A stretch of 44,877 nt of DNA. Source: Gemmataceae bacterium. Its GTDB lineage: Bacteria; Planctomycetota; Planctomycetia; Gemmatales; Gemmataceae. The notes below the pieces were generated by a model. That model saw only the letters and a list, made by a program, of their open reading frames with translations. It was not told the DNA's origin and searched no databases. Below are positions 24,005 through 42,746 of this stretch, one piece after another. The DNA lies in assembly GCA_028288765.1 (NCBI GenBank), contig JAQGHQ010000157.1, positions 1 through 44,877 on the forward strand, written 5' to 3'. Numbering within the stretch: position 1 is the stretch's first letter; each line of letters opens with the position of its first letter. A program made the translations under genes and the position numbers.

Positions 24005-24124
24005 AATAACGATACACATTCTTTGGGCCCCCAGAAACTCTCTCTCGGGGCTGTTAGAACCTCTGGTCGGCATCGTCAGTATGGTGACGAGAGAAGCTGA
24101 CCGCGATCCCGGCCGACCGCAGTG

Positions 24125-24715
24125 ATGCCGAATGGCTCCGCGAACGACTCTGGCCTGCCATCGGGGTCCGCCCGACGGGCGGAGTTTGAATCGCTGTATC
24201 AACACTACAGCCGGGAAGTCTGGGCACTGTCCTACGCCCGCTGGATGGACGCGGATCTCGCGATGGACGTGACGCAGGAGGCGTTCCTGCGGCTGTGGCG
24301 GCAGTGGGAGGCCGGGGAGGACATTCAGAACCCCCGGGCGTGGCTCCTACGGGTGGCCCGCAATTTGGCGGAGGATTACGCCAAGAGCGCCTTCCGACGG
24401 AACGGGACGCAACCCCCGGAATTCCTGAACGGGGTGCGGTCGTCCCAACCGCTGCCGGTGGAGATGTTGGAGAAGGAAGAGTTGTTCGCCCGGCTACGGG
24501 CGGAGCTGGAAGAACTCTCGCCGGGCGACCGAGACATCTTGACCCTGCGGTACGCCCTCGATTACGACGCGAACACGATCGCCGAGTTACTCAACGTCAA
24601 CGTGACCGCGGTTCACATGCGGCTGAGCCGGGCCCGACAACGGTTGGCCGAACGGCTTTCAGTACACGGCGACTTTACCCCAGACAACCCCGCCGAGCGA
24701 GGGACGAATAGATGA
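24125..24715 (+). CDS. ECF-type RNA polymerase sigma factor
   Basis: The 196-residue protein has sigma region 2 (EFESLYQHYSREVWALSYAR; DLAMDVTQEAFLRLWRQWEA; NPRAWLLRVARNLAEDYAKS) and region 4 (LEELSPGDRDILTLRYALDY; IAELLNVNVTAVHMRLSRAR). There is no region 3, as in ECF sigma factors. The ATG at 24125 directly follows an in-frame GTG, and no clear Shine-Dalgarno sequence exists. Its stop codon overlaps the next start (ATGA), giving translational coupling to a small TM protein that is probably its membrane partner. Target genes are unknown. Confidence 0.93.
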   Translation: MPNGSANDSGLPSGSARRAEFESLYQHYSREVWALSYARWMDADLAMDVTQEAFLRLWRQWEAGEDIQNPRAWLLRVARNLAEDYAKSAFRRNGTQPPEFLNGVRSSQPLPVEMLEKEELFARLRAELEELSPGDRDILTLRYALDYDANTIAELLNVNVTAVHMRLSRARQRLAERLSVHGDFTPDNPAERGTNR

Positions 24716-36270: not shown

Positions 36271-37509
36271 ATGCGTTTGCGAATCTCCACGGCCGTGACC
36301 GGCCTGCTCCTGCTCGCCGGCCTGTCCGCCGCCGAGGACTGGCCGGGCTGGCGCGGGCCGCGGGCCGACGGCACCGTGTCCGATTCCGGGTACGCGCTGA
36401 CGTGGACCGACACCCAGAACGTCCGCTGGAAGACGCCCATTCCCGGGACCGGCCACTCGTCGCCGGTGGTAAGAAAGGGGAAGGCGTTCGTCACCGCGTG
36501 CATCGAGGGCGAGAAGAAGCGGGTGCTCTACTGCCTGGACCGGGCGAGCGGCAAAATCCTCTGGGAGCGGGTTTCGATCGTCTCCGACCTGGAGAAGAAG
36601 CACGCCGAGAACAGCTTCGCCAGCTCGACCCCCGCGGCCGACGGGGAGCGGGTGTACGTCACGTTCTTCGACCGCCCCCTGATGCGGGTCTTCTGCTACG
36701 ACTACGCCGGGAACAAGGTGTGGGAGGCGAACCCGGGCGAGTTCTACTCCGTTCACGGATTTTGCAGCCCGCCGACGCTCTACAAGGACCTGGTGATCGT
36801 CAACGGCGACCAGGACGCCCCGAACGGGAAGCGGGCGTTCATCGTCGCGCTCGACCGGCAGACCGGAGAGGAGCGGTGGCGGGCCGACCGGCCGAACCGG
36901 CTGCGGTCGTACTGTCCGCCGGTGATCGTCGACGCCGCCGGTAAGAAACAACTCGTGCTCACGGGTAGCAAGTGTGTGTCCAGCTACGACCCGGATACGG
37001 GCAAGCAGAACTGGATCATCGATGGGCCGACCGAGCAGTTCGTCTCCAGCATGGTGATGCACGACGGGGTCCTGTTGATGACCGCCGGGTTCCCCGACCA
37101 CTGGGTGATGGCGATCAAGCCGGACGGCTCGGGGAACGTGACGAAAACGCACGTCTTGTGGGCGAAGAAGAACGAGGGCGGGTACGTGCCAAGCCCCGTG
37201 GCCCACGCCGGCAAGCTCTTCCTGGTGGACGACAAGGGAGTGGCGAGCTGTTGGGACGTGAAAACCGGCGAACGGTACTGGAAGGAGCGGCTCGGCGGGA
37301 AGGGACACCACGCCTCGGCGGTCGCGGCCGACGGCCGGGTCTATTTCACCTCCGACGACGGGATCACCTACGTGGTGAAGGCCGGGACCGAGTTCGAGGT
37401 GCTGGCCCGGAACCCGCTCGGCGAGAAGGTGTACGCCTCACCGGCGTTCTCGGACGGCGAGATCTTCCTGCGCGGGGAAAAGCATCTGTGGTGCATCGCC
37501 GGGAAGTAA
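36271..37509 (+). CDS. PQQ-like beta-propeller repeat protein (secreted)
   Basis: The 412-residue product has a signal peptide (AVTGLLLLAGLSAAE). Successive blade motifs follow: WPGWRGPRADG, RVLYCLDRASGKILWERVSI, RVFCYDYAGNKVWEANPGEF, FIVALDRQTGEERWRADRPN, CVSSYDPDTGKQNWIIDGPT, SCWDVKTGERYWKERLGGKG and FTSDDGITYVVKAG. This is the outer-membrane BamB/PQQ-like eight-bladed propeller type, very common in planctomycetes. No PQQ-dependent dehydrogenase catalytic residues are evident, so a structural or binding role is likely. GGAGAA precedes the ATG. The Tat-protein gene is divergent upstream. Confidence 0.92.
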   Translation: MRLRISTAVTGLLLLAGLSAAEDWPGWRGPRADGTVSDSGYALTWTDTQNVRWKTPIPGTGHSSPVVRKGKAFVTACIEGEKKRVLYCLDRASGKILWERVSIVSDLEKKHAENSFASSTPAADGERVYVTFFDRPLMRVFCYDYAGNKVWEANPGEFYSVHGFCSPPTLYKDLVIVNGDQDAPNGKRAFIVALDRQTGEERWRADRPNRLRSYCPPVIVDAAGKKQLVLTGSKCVSSYDPDTGKQNWIIDGPTEQFVSSMVMHDGVLLMTAGFPDHWVMAIKPDGSGNVTKTHVLWAKKNEGGYVPSPVAHAGKLFLVDDKGVASCWDVKTGERYWKERLGGKGHHASAVAADGRVYFTSDDGITYVVKAGTEFEVLARNPLGEKVYASPAFSDGEIFLRGEKHLWCIAGK

Positions 37510-37576: not shown

Positions 37577-37656
37577 GGGGAAATCGGTGACGCCGCCCGA
37601 GAGTCGGCGGGGATAACATCAGTGAGGGAGGTCGAACTGGTTAGAGGGATGTGGCC

Positions 37657-39543
37657 GTGAGGGGGCGCACCGGAGAAGTATTGAGCCGGCTGGTCCGGCC
37701 AGAGCCGGATGCCAGCTCGCTCACAGACCGGGAACTCCTCCACCGGTTCGCCGAGAGTGGGGACGAGGCCGCATTCGCGACCCTGGTCGCCAGGCACTCC
37801 CGGATGGTACTCGGCGTCTGTCGGCGACAGCTGCCCACGGTGCAGGACGCCGAGGACGCCTGCCAGGCCACGTTCCTGATCCTCGCCCGAAAGGCCGGGG
37901 GCGGGCGGTGGCAGTCTTCGGTCGCCAACTGGCTGTACACCACAGCCCGGCAGGTGGTCGCGAAGGCCCATCGCTCGGCCGCCCGCCGGACGAAACGGGA
38001 AGGCCGCGCCGCGGTGTCGGAGGCAGTCCCGGCGCTCGACGAGATCTCAGGGCGGGAACTGTTGGCGGTACTGGACGAGGAACTGGGGAAGCTCCCGGCG
38101 CTGTACCGCGAGCCCCTCGTGTTGTGTTACCTCGAAGGGTTGAGTCGCGAAGACGCGGCGGCCCGGCTCGGGGTTCCCTGGGGCACCGTGAAAACCCGCC
38201 TGGAGCGGGGCCGGAAACGGCTCGAAGCCGCCCTCACCCGGCGGGGCATCGGGCCCGGGCTCGGCCTGCTCGCCCTCGCGATCACTTCGCCGGTGGGGGC
38301 ATCTCCGCCACAACTAGCCGATACCGTCCGGGTCGCGGTTTCCGGGTCGCCCCCGGCGGCCGTCGCCGCACTCGCACAGGGGGCGCTCGTGAACAGGGTA
38401 CTTCGCAAAGTTCTCGTCGTGGTCGCGGCCGGCGCCTCGGCCGTCGGACTTGGTCTCGGGTGGCATACGGTCGGGCCTGTCGCGGTCGGGCAGGTGACGG
38501 ACACGCACGCCGGTTCGCTTCGGCCCGCGGGTGTGGGAACCGCGCCCGCGCGTTCGGCCGTCAAAGTCCCGCCCCCGCTGACCCCGGGCTTCGTCACAGC
38601 CGCCCCGGTGCCGAAGGAAGGGGACGAGCAGTTCCTGAAGGACGTTGCTGCCGCGCGCGAAAAGGCGATCCGGTTCCTGAAAGGGCGTCAAATGCCCGAC
38701 GGGACATGGGACGGGCCCGTTTCGAAGGCCTTGACGGACATGGAAGGCGGGGGGACCACCCTGGTCGCGCTGGCGCTGCTCGAAGCCGGGGTCCCGACCG
38801 ACGACCCGGTGGTCGCGAAGACGGTCGACTACCTCGTGAAGCTATCGCCGAAGAAAACGTACGTCGTCAGTTTGCAGACACAGGTGCTTGTTAAGGTGGA
38901 TCCCAAGAAACACGCGGGCCAGATCCAGAAGAATACCGACTGGTTGATCGACCAGGCGATCGGGCTCAATGATAAGGGTCGGCTGGCCGGCTGGTCGTAC
39001 CCGGGCGGCCAGAGTGGAGACGGGTCGAACACACATTTCGCGGTGTTCGCCCTCCACACCGCGGCCCGGGCCGGGGCCAAGGTGGACGACAAGATATGGG
39101 TGGCGATCCGGGAACACTACGTCCGGACGCGGAAGGACGGTGGCTGGGCGTACCAAGATGTGGACTTCGCGTTCCCGACCGAATCGATGACGGCGGCTGC
39201 GCTGGTCGGTCTCGCCGTTGCGGGGAAGTACGACAGGAACTCGGCCGCCGGTCGTGAGGCATTCGAGAAGGGGATGAACCGGTTACTCGCCATGTCCACC
39301 GACAACCCGAAGAGTGCCGGATATCAGATGTTGGTGACCGCGGAACTCGGGCGGGCGATCGGGTCGGCCGTGTTCAAGTCCGGGGACAAGGTCGTTGCGT
39401 GGTACACGGACGGAGCGACGAAACTGGTGAGGGGACAGCAGTCGGACGGGTCGTGGGTAGTACATGGAAAGGGAGTAGACGGGGACGAGGTGATCAGCAC
39501 AGCGTTCGGGCTGTACTTCCTCGGCCCGCCGGAGAAGAAGTAA
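37657..39543 (+). CDS. ECF sigma factor fused to a TM segment and alpha-toroid domain
   Basis: The 628-residue protein combines an ECF sigma factor with a membrane helix and a large C-terminal domain. Sigma region 2 (about 25-110) includes DEAAFATLVARHSRMVLGVC, DAEDACQATFLILARKAG and NWLYTTARQVVAKAHRSA. Region 4 (about 125-190) includes LPALYREPLVLCYLEGLSRE and LGVPWGTVKTRLERGRKRLE. A TM helix follows (LRKVLVVVAAGASAVGLGLG, about 240-260), then a roughly 300-residue domain with QW-like motifs (QMPDGTWDG, RKDGGWAY, QQSDGSWVV), as in prenyltransferase/squalene-cyclase-like alpha/alpha toroids. The domain should sit outside the membrane and sense or bind something; the catalytic aspartate motif is not seen. 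GTG 37657 fits GAGGG 8 nt upstream. Fused ECF sigma factors are known in Gemmata relatives. Confidence 0.92.
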   Translation: MRGRTGEVLSRLVRPEPDASSLTDRELLHRFAESGDEAAFATLVARHSRMVLGVCRRQLPTVQDAEDACQATFLILARKAGGGRWQSSVANWLYTTARQVVAKAHRSAARRTKREGRAAVSEAVPALDEISGRELLAVLDEELGKLPALYREPLVLCYLEGLSREDAAARLGVPWGTVKTRLERGRKRLEAALTRRGIGPGLGLLALAITSPVGASPPQLADTVRVAVSGSPPAAVAALAQGALVNRVLRKVLVVVAAGASAVGLGLGWHTVGPVAVGQVTDTHAGSLRPAGVGTAPARSAVKVPPPLTPGFVTAAPVPKEGDEQFLKDVAAAREKAIRFLKGRQMPDGTWDGPVSKALTDMEGGGTTLVALALLEAGVPTDDPVVAKTVDYLVKLSPKKTYVVSLQTQVLVKVDPKKHAGQIQKNTDWLIDQAIGLNDKGRLAGWSYPGGQSGDGSNTHFAVFALHTAARAGAKVDDKIWVAIREHYVRTRKDGGWAYQDVDFAFPTESMTAAALVGLAVAGKYDRNSAAGREAFEKGMNRLLAMSTDNPKSAGYQMLVTAELGRAIGSAVFKSGDKVVAWYTDGATKLVRGQQSDGSWVVHGKGVDGDEVISTAFGLYFLGPPEKK

Positions 39544-39608: not shown

Positions 39609-42600
39609 CTACTTCGCCACAAGCCCCTTGAGCAACTCGTTGTCGTCCTTCGGCAGGCCCCAAACGAGGAGGGCGAATGCGAGCGTGAGCGGGGCCTTGG
39701 TCTCGGGCAGCCGGACGACCGCCTGCCAGCCGCCGCCCTGCTTCGGCACGAAGCGCCAGCTCGTTCCGGTCGGGGCTCCTACCAACTCTAAAACAGTTGC
39801 CTTGTCCCCGTCGCCGGGCAACACCACCTTCACACCGTCGGCCCCGACGGTCGGGTCGCCGAGTTTCGGGATCGGAGCGACCGACCCGTCGGCCCGCACG
39901 ACCCGCGGCTCCTTCGTCCCCTGGCCGGCGAGCAGCCACGCCCGGTACCCGGCCGGCACCTCGACCTCGATCTTCCGGGTGAGTCCGGCCGCGATCCCGG
40001 TCTTGATCGGAACGGGCGTCTCGGCCACCTTCAAAACAGCGCCCTTGTCGTTCTCCGTCAGGTGATACCGGAAGGTGGGGAGGCCGTCCGGGTCGAGTGA
40101 GTAGCCGTCGAACTCCACGGCCCGAGGACCGTCGTACACCCGTGCCGGATCGAGCGGGAGCGGGGTGCCGAATGCCGGGTTGTTGGCCCGCCCGACGAAA
40201 TCCGGCGGGAGGTCGGGGTTGACCGTCAGGCCCCAGGGATGTCCGTCCGGGCCGGTCCAGAACTTCGGCCCGAGCAGCTTCGCCGGCGCGCCGCCGCGGT
40301 TGTTCCACACCGGCGAGGCGTCGAGGAAATTCCCCGCCCACCCGTAGGCGAGCCGGCACTGGTCCGCGCTGAACGCGACCGACACGCCCCCCGGGTAGCC
40401 GACCGCGATCGCCTTGCTCCCCGCGTCGGGCATGAACGTGCGGAGCAGTTCCGGCCGGCCGTTCACGGCGATGATGAGACCCTTCGGCGGTTCCATCCCT
40501 TCGGGCAGCGGAAGCCCCGGCCCCAGCGACAGGTACGCCCACATCGCCTCGGCCTGCGCTTCCGGGTTGCCGTTGAGGACCGTGGCGAGGGTCGACTTGT
40601 TGTCCACGAACGCCTGGGGCATGCGGGTGCCGGGGGCCATCCGGAGCGGCTGGTGCAGCCACCGCTCGTACCAGTCGAACCGGACCCGCTGGTTGATCGT
40701 GGCGAGGTCCGGGCCGCGGGTCCCGGTGTTCGGAATGCCGGCGATGTCGTGACAGGAGATGCACCCGAGCCCGCCCTTGCCGACGATCGTTTTCCCGGCC
40801 CCGACCCTGGCCGCGGTCAACGGCACCTTGTGAACGGTATCGTCCGGGGTGGTCCCCTCGAGGAGCGCGAGGGCCACGGGCAGTGCGCCGACGTTCCCCT
40901 CGCCGTACTGCGGCATGCGCAGCTGCATCCACGGCCGGGCCCGGCCCCCCTGGGTCAGTACCGACTTCAGCCAGGTCGTCCGCGACTTGTGCCCGATCCC
41001 GGTGAGGAGTGGCGGCCGGACGTCGTCGGCGTTCTCGGCCTTTTCGAGCAGGCGCATCTGGTCGGCCAGCTCGACGGAAATCCCGCCTTCCCCGTCCTTG
41101 CTGTGACAGTTCAGGCAGTTGAAGCGCCGCAGGGCGAGCCTGGTGGCGTGGGTCGGCGCCGGCGACCCCGCCCCCGACAGCCCGTGAGTGAGGAACGCGG
41201 CGATGGCGGCCTGCTCTGGGGCGGCGAGCTGGTAAGTCGGCAGTTTCGTGGGATCTGGCCTGGAGGTCAGACAGCCGTGTCCGGCCTCGACCTTCTTGAG
41301 ATCATTAAGGGACGAGAACTTCGCTGTCGGGGCGAGCACCTTCCCGCCCGGTTCGACCGCGTGGCAGTTCACACACCCCTTGGTGACCAGCAGCTTCCGC
41401 CCGAGGTCGATCCACTGCGTATCGGGTGGCAGGTTGTGGAACGCCTCGCGCTCGGCCGGCTTTGCCCCGAACGCCTCGTAAACCCGGTCGGCGATCCTCG
41501 ACGGCTTGAGTCCCTTGCCGGTCGGCGCGGCGGGTTCCAGTGTTTCGTCGGTCACGCGGCACAGGTAGCGGGCGATGTCGGTGGCTTCCTTCGCTTCCAG
41601 GTTCCCGTGGGGCATTCGCCCGGACGGGTTCACCTTGAGGGGATTCTGGAGGTACGCGGCGAGCGTTTCCGGGCGGTACTTGCTGCCGACCGCCCCGAGA
41701 CTGTACCTGGCGGACGGCCCGGCGGACGTCCCCGCCCCGTAGATGTAATCGTCCGGACGGAGGGGTTCCCTGTCGTCCTCCTCGTCGCGGGCCGGCTTCT
41801 TCGTCTGCGCCTCGGTGTGGCACGCGGCACACCCGGTCACGCTGAACAGGACTCGCCCACGTTCCATGCTCTGCTTGTAGTCGTTCGAGAGGGTCGGCGG
41901 CTTCACCGGTTCGAGTGCCGTACCCGCGAGCGAGACGAGGTACTTCACTACCGCATATCGCTCCGCCTTTCCCGTCTCGTCGGCGGAGAACATCTTCGGC
42001 ATCGCCGTTTGCGGGCGGAGCCTGGCCGGGTCGGCGAGCCAGGCGTCGATCCACCCGGCGTAGCTCCGTTTGCCGACGTCGGTCAGGTTCGGGGCGGGCC
42101 GGTCGGCGAGGCCCTTGGCCATCTTGTCGGTCGCGTCGGGTTTGTGACACCGTGCGCAGGCGAGTTCCTCGAACTGGAACCTGCCGTGTTCGAGCTGGGC
42201 GTCCGTGGCGAGGGTGGCCGGGCGGTCCTTGGGCAGGTGGCCGAAGAACATGTAGGGGACCGGTTCGTTACGGAACCCGGGGCCGTGCCAGAACAGCTCG
42301 ACGCAGGCCTGGTCATCACCTTGTGAGGTGAACGTCGCTTGGAACGGCTGCACCCCGCCTTCCAGCGTCACCTCGGCCCCGGTCTTTGTCGTCGCCTCCT
42401 TGGTGTCGCCCAGGGCGGATAACACCTGCTTCCCGTTCACCTGGGCGCGAAGGATGCCACCCCTAACGGACGCCGAGAACGTGTATTTCCCCGGCCGCAC
42501 GACGTTGATGTACCCGGACCACCGGGCCGACATCAGCCCCGCCAGCCGGGGGTGGGGCGCCTCCCCGGCCTGAAGCGAAAGGGCAACCGTCGGTTCCAGC

Positions 42601-42746
42601 CTGACGACCCCTGGCGGCGGCTGGCCCTTGTGCGGTTCGAGGTACTGGACGACCAGCCCCGGCTTGAGCTCCGACGGTTCGATTGCGTTGGCCGCCGGGA
42701 CGAGTGAAATGAGGGTAAGGGTGGGCAGGAAATAGCGGTGGGTCAT
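39609..42746 (-). CDS. PA14-domain pentaheme c-type cytochrome
   Basis: This 1045-residue exported protein has a signal peptide (YFLPTLTLISLVPAANA) and an N-terminal PA14-like beta-sandwich (LMSARWSGYINVVRPGKYTF; VEVTLEGGVQPFQATF-like strands; CVELFWHGPG). It has five CXXCH heme sites: CARCH at C197, CAACH at C306, CVNCH at C458, CLNCH at C544 and CISCH at C662. Met ligand candidates follow in MPKMFS, GRMPHGN, RMPQYGEG and TRMPQAF. The C-terminal 350 residues resemble a sugar- or protein-binding beta-rich domain. It is probably a periplasmic electron carrier or oxidase partner; PA14 often binds carbohydrate. Partner dehydrogenases are not adjacent. Confidence 0.92.
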   Translation of the reverse strand: MTHRYFLPTLTLISLVPAANAIEPSELKPGLVVQYLEPHKGQPPPGVVRLEPTVALSLQAGEAPHPRLAGLMSARWSGYINVVRPGKYTFSASVRGGILRAQVNGKQVLSALGDTKEATTKTGAEVTLEGGVQPFQATFTSQGDDQACVELFWHGPGFRNEPVPYMFFGHLPKDRPATLATDAQLEHGRFQFEELACARCHKPDATDKMAKGLADRPAPNLTDVGKRSYAGWIDAWLADPARLRPQTAMPKMFSADETGKAERYAVVKYLVSLAGTALEPVKPPTLSNDYKQSMERGRVLFSVTGCAACHTEAQTKKPARDEEDDREPLRPDDYIYGAGTSAGPSARYSLGAVGSKYRPETLAAYLQNPLKVNPSGRMPHGNLEAKEATDIARYLCRVTDETLEPAAPTGKGLKPSRIADRVYEAFGAKPAEREAFHNLPPDTQWIDLGRKLLVTKGCVNCHAVEPGGKVLAPTAKFSSLNDLKKVEAGHGCLTSRPDPTKLPTYQLAAPEQAAIAAFLTHGLSGAGSPAPTHATRLALRRFNCLNCHSKDGEGGISVELADQMRLLEKAENADDVRPPLLTGIGHKSRTTWLKSVLTQGGRARPWMQLRMPQYGEGNVGALPVALALLEGTTPDDTVHKVPLTAARVGAGKTIVGKGGLGCISCHDIAGIPNTGTRGPDLATINQRVRFDWYERWLHQPLRMAPGTRMPQAFVDNKSTLATVLNGNPEAQAEAMWAYLSLGPGLPLPEGMEPPKGLIIAVNGRPELLRTFMPDAGSKAIAVGYPGGVSVAFSADQCRLAYGWAGNFLDASPVWNNRGGAPAKLLGPKFWTGPDGHPWGLTVNPDLPPDFVGRANNPAFGTPLPLDPARVYDGPRAVEFDGYSLDPDGLPTFRYHLTENDKGAVLKVAETPVPIKTGIAAGLTRKIEVEVPAGYRAWLLAGQGTKEPRVVRADGSVAPIPKLGDPTVGADGVKVVLPGDGDKATVLELVGAPTGTSWRFVPKQGGGWQAVVRLPETKAPLTLAFALLVWGLPKDDNELLKGLVAK

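Follow-up and report, generated by a model that had tools for sequence, protein, structure and literature searches.

Jogler et al. in 2012 and Casas-Pastor et al. in 2021 are said to have described ECF sigma factors of planctomycetes with WD40 domains at the C-terminus (ECF57). The passages on ECF57 in PMC8999054 describe the WD40 C-terminal extension as prevalent, suggest regulation by protein interaction, and report that sigma2 and sigma4 each hold one conserved cysteine. In Tuwongella, according to part of PMC8567305, ECF sigma factors were recovered in Triton/SDS fractions. Other sigma factors combine all parts in one chain. IutY of Pseudomonas putida (ECF243) consists of a cytosolic sigma factor, a transmembrane (TM) segment and a periplasmic domain; once trimmed to a stub of about 50 periplasmic residues it is cleaved by Prc and RseP (PMC5411451). 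In Actinobacteria (SCO4117), ECF48, ECF52 and ECF53 are also single chains with a TM segment, and ECF52 carries an outer carbohydrate-binding domain (passages of PMC5826349).

The gene described here occurs in a 44,877-nucleotide stretch of a Gemmataceae genome (contig JAQGHQ010000157.1), referred to below as the window, and encodes an ECF sigma factor, a predicted TM helix and an alpha/alpha-toroid in one chain (Table 1). It is like ECF57 in the long C-terminal extension on an ECF sigma factor and in belonging to an expanded family. Unlike ECF57, its outer domain is a toroid and not a WD40 propeller, and a TM segment is predicted, whereas the ECF57 passages of PMC8999054 include no TM sensor. 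The order of sigma factor, TM segment and outer domain is shared with IutY, whose own activation, in the passages cited, is by proteolytic release. IutY has a FecR-type anti-sigma domain, in contrast to the window protein, where Pfam gave no FecR family match at E up to 1. ECF48, ECF52 and ECF53 come from another phylum and differ by a zinc-finger anti-sigma domain before the TM segment, no zinc-finger family being matched in the window protein, again at E up to 1 in Pfam. The literature searches, whose reach stopped short of the main ECF classification papers, showed no paper on an ECF-toroid fusion among those listed. The layout is already of a known kind; new here are the toroid as its outer domain, with free relatives beside M28 peptidase genes, the apparently independent fusions, the upstream element and the candidate internal start.

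Table 1. Features of the gene and its upstream region, with positions in the window
Feature	Position	Strand	Basis or remark
Two-block element TGACGCCG-N12-CGGGGATAA, candidate sigma-specific (autoregulatory) promoter	37588..37616	+	Upstream alignment, 95-genome search
One-chain ECF sigma factor-TM-toroid gene	37657..39543	+	628 aa; alternative start GTG 37651
Sigma-70 region 2	37783..37989	+	Residues 45-113; Sigma70_r2 PF04542, 42.9 bits (cut-off 24)
Sigma-70 region 4	38071..38223	+	Residues 141-191; Sigma70_r4_2 PF08281, 55.1 bits (cut-off 25.7)
Juxtamembrane stretch, family motif L..GV...M...K in paralogues	38224..38394	+	Consensus of 27 own paralogues
AGGGGG + GTG (38389), candidate internal start of translation, upstream of the hydrophobic segment	38378..38391	+	Duplex -9.4 kcal/mol
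Predicted single TM helix, residues 247-264	38395..38448	+	AF2 helix, hydropathy, constant place and positive-inside flank in paralogues
Predicted disordered extracytoplasmic linker, about 56 residues, TAAPVPK at its end	38449..38616	+	pLDDT <50 at 262-320
Alpha/alpha-toroid domain, residues 321-628	38617..39540	+	Pfam match, solved relatives, AF2, Foldseek
D-G-S-N of the DxSN(T/S/V)xxA motif	39019..39030	+	Kept in 50/50 toroid rows

The frame (37651-39543, +) is open throughout and gives 630 aa from GTG 37651 or 628 aa from GTG 37657. The sequence GAGGGA at 37644-37649 stops 7 nt short of GTG 37657, and an in-frame TAG lies at 37642. Both sigma2 and sigma4 are present and TIGR02937 scores 74.3 bits (cut-off 42.9), which identifies the N-terminal half as an ECF sigma factor. 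In the full-length AF2 model (14 sequences; pLDDT 75.7, pTM 0.54) sigma helices extend up to residue 195, residues 247-264 form a further helix, 262-320 are disordered and the toroid begins at 321; the juxtamembrane stretch forms short helices of low confidence. The same chain is found in two congeners, G002 (65% identity to the window protein) and G001 (57%). By part, identity in G002 and G001 is 77 and 67% for the sigma factor, 66 and 60% for the toroid, and 46 and 35% for the linker with the TM segment. Codon position 3 is the most variable in every region of the chain among the congeneric orthologues. Because the orthologous chain occurs in both congeners, with both halves conserved and with this codon-position constraint, it is more than a chance joining. 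The initial annotation had read sigma factor, TM segment and toroid in one 628-residue frame, and the uninterrupted frame, the Pfam matches, the AF2 model and the two orthologues bear this out; no frameshift splits the halves, and the chain is kept in three congeners. By these comparisons the gene is confirmed as real and conserved. Three cysteines (C55, C69 and C157) are invariant in the three congeneric fusions; the passages on ECF57 leave the positions of its cysteines unspecified.

In the window the gene is directly preceded by one for a PQQ/BamB-like propeller protein (36271-37509, +), which does not occur in the orthologues' stretches. A multi-heme cytochrome c protein of 1045 aa with a PA14-like match just under cut-off (39609-42746, -) is encoded convergently with the sigma gene; this gene is not beside the orthologues. 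A second ECF-like sigma gene (24122-24715, +; 197 aa) lacks an extension.

Taken alone, the hydrophobic segment of the window protein is unremarkable. Its Kyte-Doolittle value is 1.76, and shuffles of the 150 residues after sigma4 equal its hydropathy in 43% of cases (p 0.43). The segment is convincing only because the paralogues keep it at a constant place. When the same genome was searched with the window protein, 150 of 152 candidates were scored, which gave at least 72 matches at E up to 0.001; 70 matches, the gene itself counted, overlap the sigma half. Among 29 of the genome's ECF loci with a BLAST sigma match, 24 have an extension of at least 150 aa and were used for the position count, five being left out. 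The most hydrophobic 19-residue window begins +45 to +70 after sigma4 in 23 of the 24 (window protein included), a range set after viewing the data. The N flank is more positive than the C flank in 22, with one tie (p 2e-5); as the paralogues share ancestry and the range was chosen afterwards, p values serve only as a guide. We infer a topology with the sigma factor inside and the toroid outside, as had been predicted, from this positive-inside flank and from the signal-peptide-like starts (judged by eye) of the nearest free toroids.

A TM-like segment at the same place occurs in at least 22 of the paralogues, which leaves a singular design unsupported. The outer domains on the 27 paralogues scanned, ten of them also one by one, include PD40/WD40 (PF00400 on four), CarboxypepD_reg, Rotamase, HlyD, Secretin_N and SBP_bac_10/DUF1559. 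Outside the genus, five of six close sigma relatives have CarboxypepD_reg as outer domain and the sixth has WD40. A sigma factor and TM segment with an exchangeable outer domain is thus a common design in these bacteria. One ECF paralogue (L007, G000:C277) is broken by a TAA stop.

The toroid domain of the window protein matches SQHop_cyclase_C with 28.6 bits, just over the cut-off of 26.1. In the three other fusions described below the scores (24.2, 16.5 and 20.6 bits) are all under the cut-off, so the toroid assignment depends on the structure model. The AF2 model of the domain (19 toroid sequences) is largely helical, with pLDDT 88.1 and pTM 0.89. Foldseek places AprG transaldolase, SHC-like cyclases and MstE as the best folds at a TM-score of about 0.6, with GH76 also a neighbour; at E up to 0.001 there are 14 matches, all of them AprG, SHC-like or MstE chains. 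Prediction and search both agree with the toroid that had been proposed, and the modelled ring of paired helices corresponds to an alpha/alpha-toroid fold. The nearest solved structures by sequence are squalene-hopene cyclases (1gsz, E 4.9e-15, over a repeat). These resemble the window toroid in repeat sequence and in fold; unlike them, it is a single domain and lacks DxDD.

DxDD is the catalytic motif of class II terpene cyclases such as squalene-hopene cyclase. It is missing in all 11 short or fused toroids, and among the 50 toroid rows it occurs in two, both long-frame proteins (L039 and L041), away from the DxSN site. The conserved DxSN likely marks a site in the toroid. A role as an isoprenoid sensor, raised in the initial annotation, is unsupported, given the missing DxDD and the modest likeness in fold. 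The complement-like TED is marked by the thioester motif CGEQ, which occurs in none of the 50 toroid rows; PF07678 is weak in some toroid relatives, and one (L070) is just over cut-off (22.6 vs 22). Zavarzinella formosa has three toroid loci (L083, L084 and L087) with DNSNV instead of DNSNT.

Within the genus the fusion occurs in three of six genomes (G000, which is the window's genome, G001 and G002; not G003, G004 or G005). A profile of these three congeneric fusions recovered at least four full fusions from 95 family genomes, the fourth in G081, with at most 13 candidates per genome scored, so that the count is a lower bound. A toroid relative at E up to 1e-20 is present in 53 of 59 genomes, the window's own included. 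Most of the frames listed are roughly 740-940 aa long, and the one scanned (L063) contains DUF4159 (PF13709); the long proteins are about 29-42% identical to the window toroid. The closest relatives are free proteins of about 330 aa, 46-55% identical, which share the toroid and, unlike the window protein, have a signal-peptide-like start and no sigma domain. The long DUF4159 protein encoded in the same genome is disfavoured as the source of the toroid, fused and free short toroids grouping apart (100/100). The long toroid protein at L063:9513-12029 adjoins a purL-like gene, as do those in L065 and L067, where a prephenate-dehydrogenase-like gene is also adjacent (both gene names assigned by eye).

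In 30 chosen genomes the short toroid is free in seven and fused in four, and in none does it occur in both forms. The free toroid adjoins an M28 peptidase in all seven. The gene order in G064, G065, G067 and G070 is esterase-like gene, CysC, unnamed protein, toroid and M28. The window's genome has the same four genes without the toroid at its M28 locus (L151), and in G081 the fusion lies on the other side of M28 in the esterase-like/CysC/M28 locus. The residues APVP are found at the expected mature start of five of the seven free toroids and directly before the toroid in three of the four fusions; they are missing in the free toroids of G070 and G077 and in the G001 fusion. The fused outer domain corresponds to the mature part of the free protein with its signal-peptide-like start. 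Another ECF sigma factor (about 580 aa) lies beside the M28/free-toroid pair in G064, G065 and G067 (L118, L119 and L121), and a Pfam scan of the outer part of the one in L118 gave no match. The G081 sigma half is not orthologous to the ECF gene beside M28 in G064, the two falling in different parts of the sigma tree.

The sigma half of the G081 fusion is 47% identical to that of the window protein; six sigma factors whose outer domains are of other kinds reach 62-69%. A single clade of all four fusions is rejected both by the sigma tree (44 rows, p-AU 0.0015), whose bootstrap had not settled, and by the toroid tree (50 rows, p-AU 0.0034), from which matches under 240 residues and identical rows were left out. 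The three congeneric fusions group in the toroid tree (97/99) and are unresolved among nine rows in the sigma tree. The rejection in both trees is read as at least two captures of the toroid, and the G081 fusion seems to have arisen independently. One old fusion followed by many later fissions or swaps is a less simple alternative.

Upstream of all three congeneric fusions the alignment shows an element of two blocks, TGACGCCG-N12-CGGGGATWA, alike in blocks and spacing. In the window it ends 34 nt before GTG 37651 and 40 nt before GTG 37657. The distance to the longest frame is 38 nt in G002 and 36 nt in G088, and in G001 the frame begins 5 nt after the element. The exact element occurs at four sites in the 95 family genomes, all upstream of members of this sigma subclade; three of the four served to derive the pattern, and the site in G088, where the outer domain is CarboxypepD_reg, is independent of the definition. 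Sites with one mismatch number eight, against four in the reversed control, and none precedes a sigma gene. The best match in the upstream regions of 28 other ECF genes of the window's genome is at most 13/17. When 27 upstream regions from the subclade and its neighbours are compared, the element is exact in four, and two more have N12 versions at a similar place (shuffle p <0.05); the remainder are individually unconvincing, and the element is intact only in G088 among the 24 further regions. A wider regulon was rejected: allowing up to two mismatches in three genomes yielded 10 sites, the reversed control yielded 5, and none of the seven two-mismatch sites precedes a sigma gene. Since all four exact sites precede this subclade, the element suggests an autoregulatory promoter, tied to the sigma half and not to the outer domain. 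It could instead be an operator or an ordinary promoter. No known target of the subclade came up in the searches, and the element gives it a testable candidate promoter.

The best explanation overall, which we hold to be about evenly balanced between right and wrong, is a Gemmataceae 'chassis' in which an ECF sigma factor, self-contained and tethered to the membrane, is released upon an outside signal. The chassis would combine sigma2-sigma4 and the conserved juxtamembrane stretch with a single TM helix, a flexible linker and the exchangeable outer domain, and the sigma factor would stay inactive while tethered. A protein, peptide or glycan that binds to the toroid, or ceases to bind, would make the disordered linker accessible to site-1 proteolysis, after which the TM helix would be cleaved by an M50 site-2 protease. 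The freed sigma factor would take RNA polymerase to its own promoter and possibly to looser sites. The linker is near in length to the periplasmic stub of IutY given above. M50 proteases give 13 matches over cut-off in 8 frames of the window's genome; the family is matched in 14 of 14 control genomes as well, so its presence is unspecific. The M28 gene beside the free toroid is a hint that the ligand has to do with peptides or proteins. A separate anti-sigma factor would be unnecessary, and the initial proposal that it is bypassed gains from the scanned neighbours, which contain no anti-sigma family. No partner gene besides the fusion itself is common to the window and the G001, G002 and G081 stretches, and a shared partner or anti-sigma gene was rejected.

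Release need not involve cleavage if the anchored sigma factor is active and the toroid modulates only its clustering or exposure, for which ToxR is a comparison. The low-confidence, probably flexible stretches on both sides of the TM helix in the AF2 model would suit such tethered transcription, as would the lack of a protease gene shared beside the fusions, but IutY, the one such single chain with experimental characterisation in the review PMC8999054, works through release by proteolysis (also PMC5411451), and we consider this reading unlikely. It is less probable still that the toroid has an enzymatic role (as a cyclase, as a transaldolase or on glycans) and is anchored by chance. Its Foldseek neighbours are mostly enzymes and the invariant DxSN suggests a site, but the short and fused clade lacks DxDD, the likeness in fold points to no enzyme class, and the double fusion to a sigma factor is left unexplained. 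The window's genome is a draft of 615 contigs, in which a frameshift or misassembly could join a sigma gene to a separate toroid gene; this is scarcely credible, since three congeners have the same chain amid different neighbours and the codon-position constraint runs through the linker.

A different reading, possible but doubtful, is that the gene yields two products, the full chain and a separately translated outer domain. Translation of the latter would begin inside the frame, at GTG 38389 here and at an ATG in most paralogues, behind a Shine-Dalgarno sequence of its own. The outer domain would be secreted or anchored, with the TM segment as its signal peptide; sigma factor and sensor would be made in a fixed ratio, and free sensor could titrate the ligand or pair with the tethered one. 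In 40 ECF proteins scored, three of them near-copies, ATG occurs near the TM start (16 residues before to 2 after) in 30 and any start codon in 38, the latter count being weak because GTG and TTG are common. The anti-Shine-Dalgarno duplex at this site has a median of -8.0 kcal/mol vs -3.0 at 277 other in-frame ATGs (p 6e-13, using the best candidate per gene, which biases toward the pre-TM site), but conserved amino acids account for most of this energy, a methionine just before the TM segment being part of the family motif in many paralogues. After synonymous recoding of 38 genes an excess remains (-7.62 observed vs -6.02 expected, Fisher p 0.0057), against p 0.67 or more at four control places. 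These tests left out extensions under 150 aa, and the recoding test also two near-copies. Singly, p <0.1 is reached in only 5 of the 38 genes, vs 6 of 38 at one control place, and the fusions themselves give 0.13 (window), 0.22 (G002), 0.79 (G001) and 1.0 (G081, energy -3.5). Among the nine members of the sigma subclade, four have ATG at the aligned position and five have GTG, every valine there being GTG, which makes up 40% of valine codons. Against this stand the common ancestry of the paralogues and the possibility that Shine-Dalgarno-like stretches serve pausing during membrane insertion. The start-like sequence would reflect either separate translation of the outer domain, or an aid to membrane insertion, or a relic. 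The initial annotation had held that an internal start would speak against one chain; the pre-TM start has gained moderate evidence, and the full chain stands unrefuted. The toroid may, on the same moderate evidence, also be made separately.

More speculative than the internal start itself is a picture of the expanded Gemmataceae ECF family in which one frame would give both a tethered sigma factor and a secreted outer domain, secreted domains having been captured repeatedly behind a start/TM cassette and served by private promoters. The putative internal start is testable and bears on many paralogues in one genome. The preferred reading, of a tethered sigma factor released upon an outside signal, suggests a route to new outside-to-inside switches, in which the mature portion of a secreted protein is joined to a fixed sigma-TM cassette, as has apparently happened twice with the same toroid.
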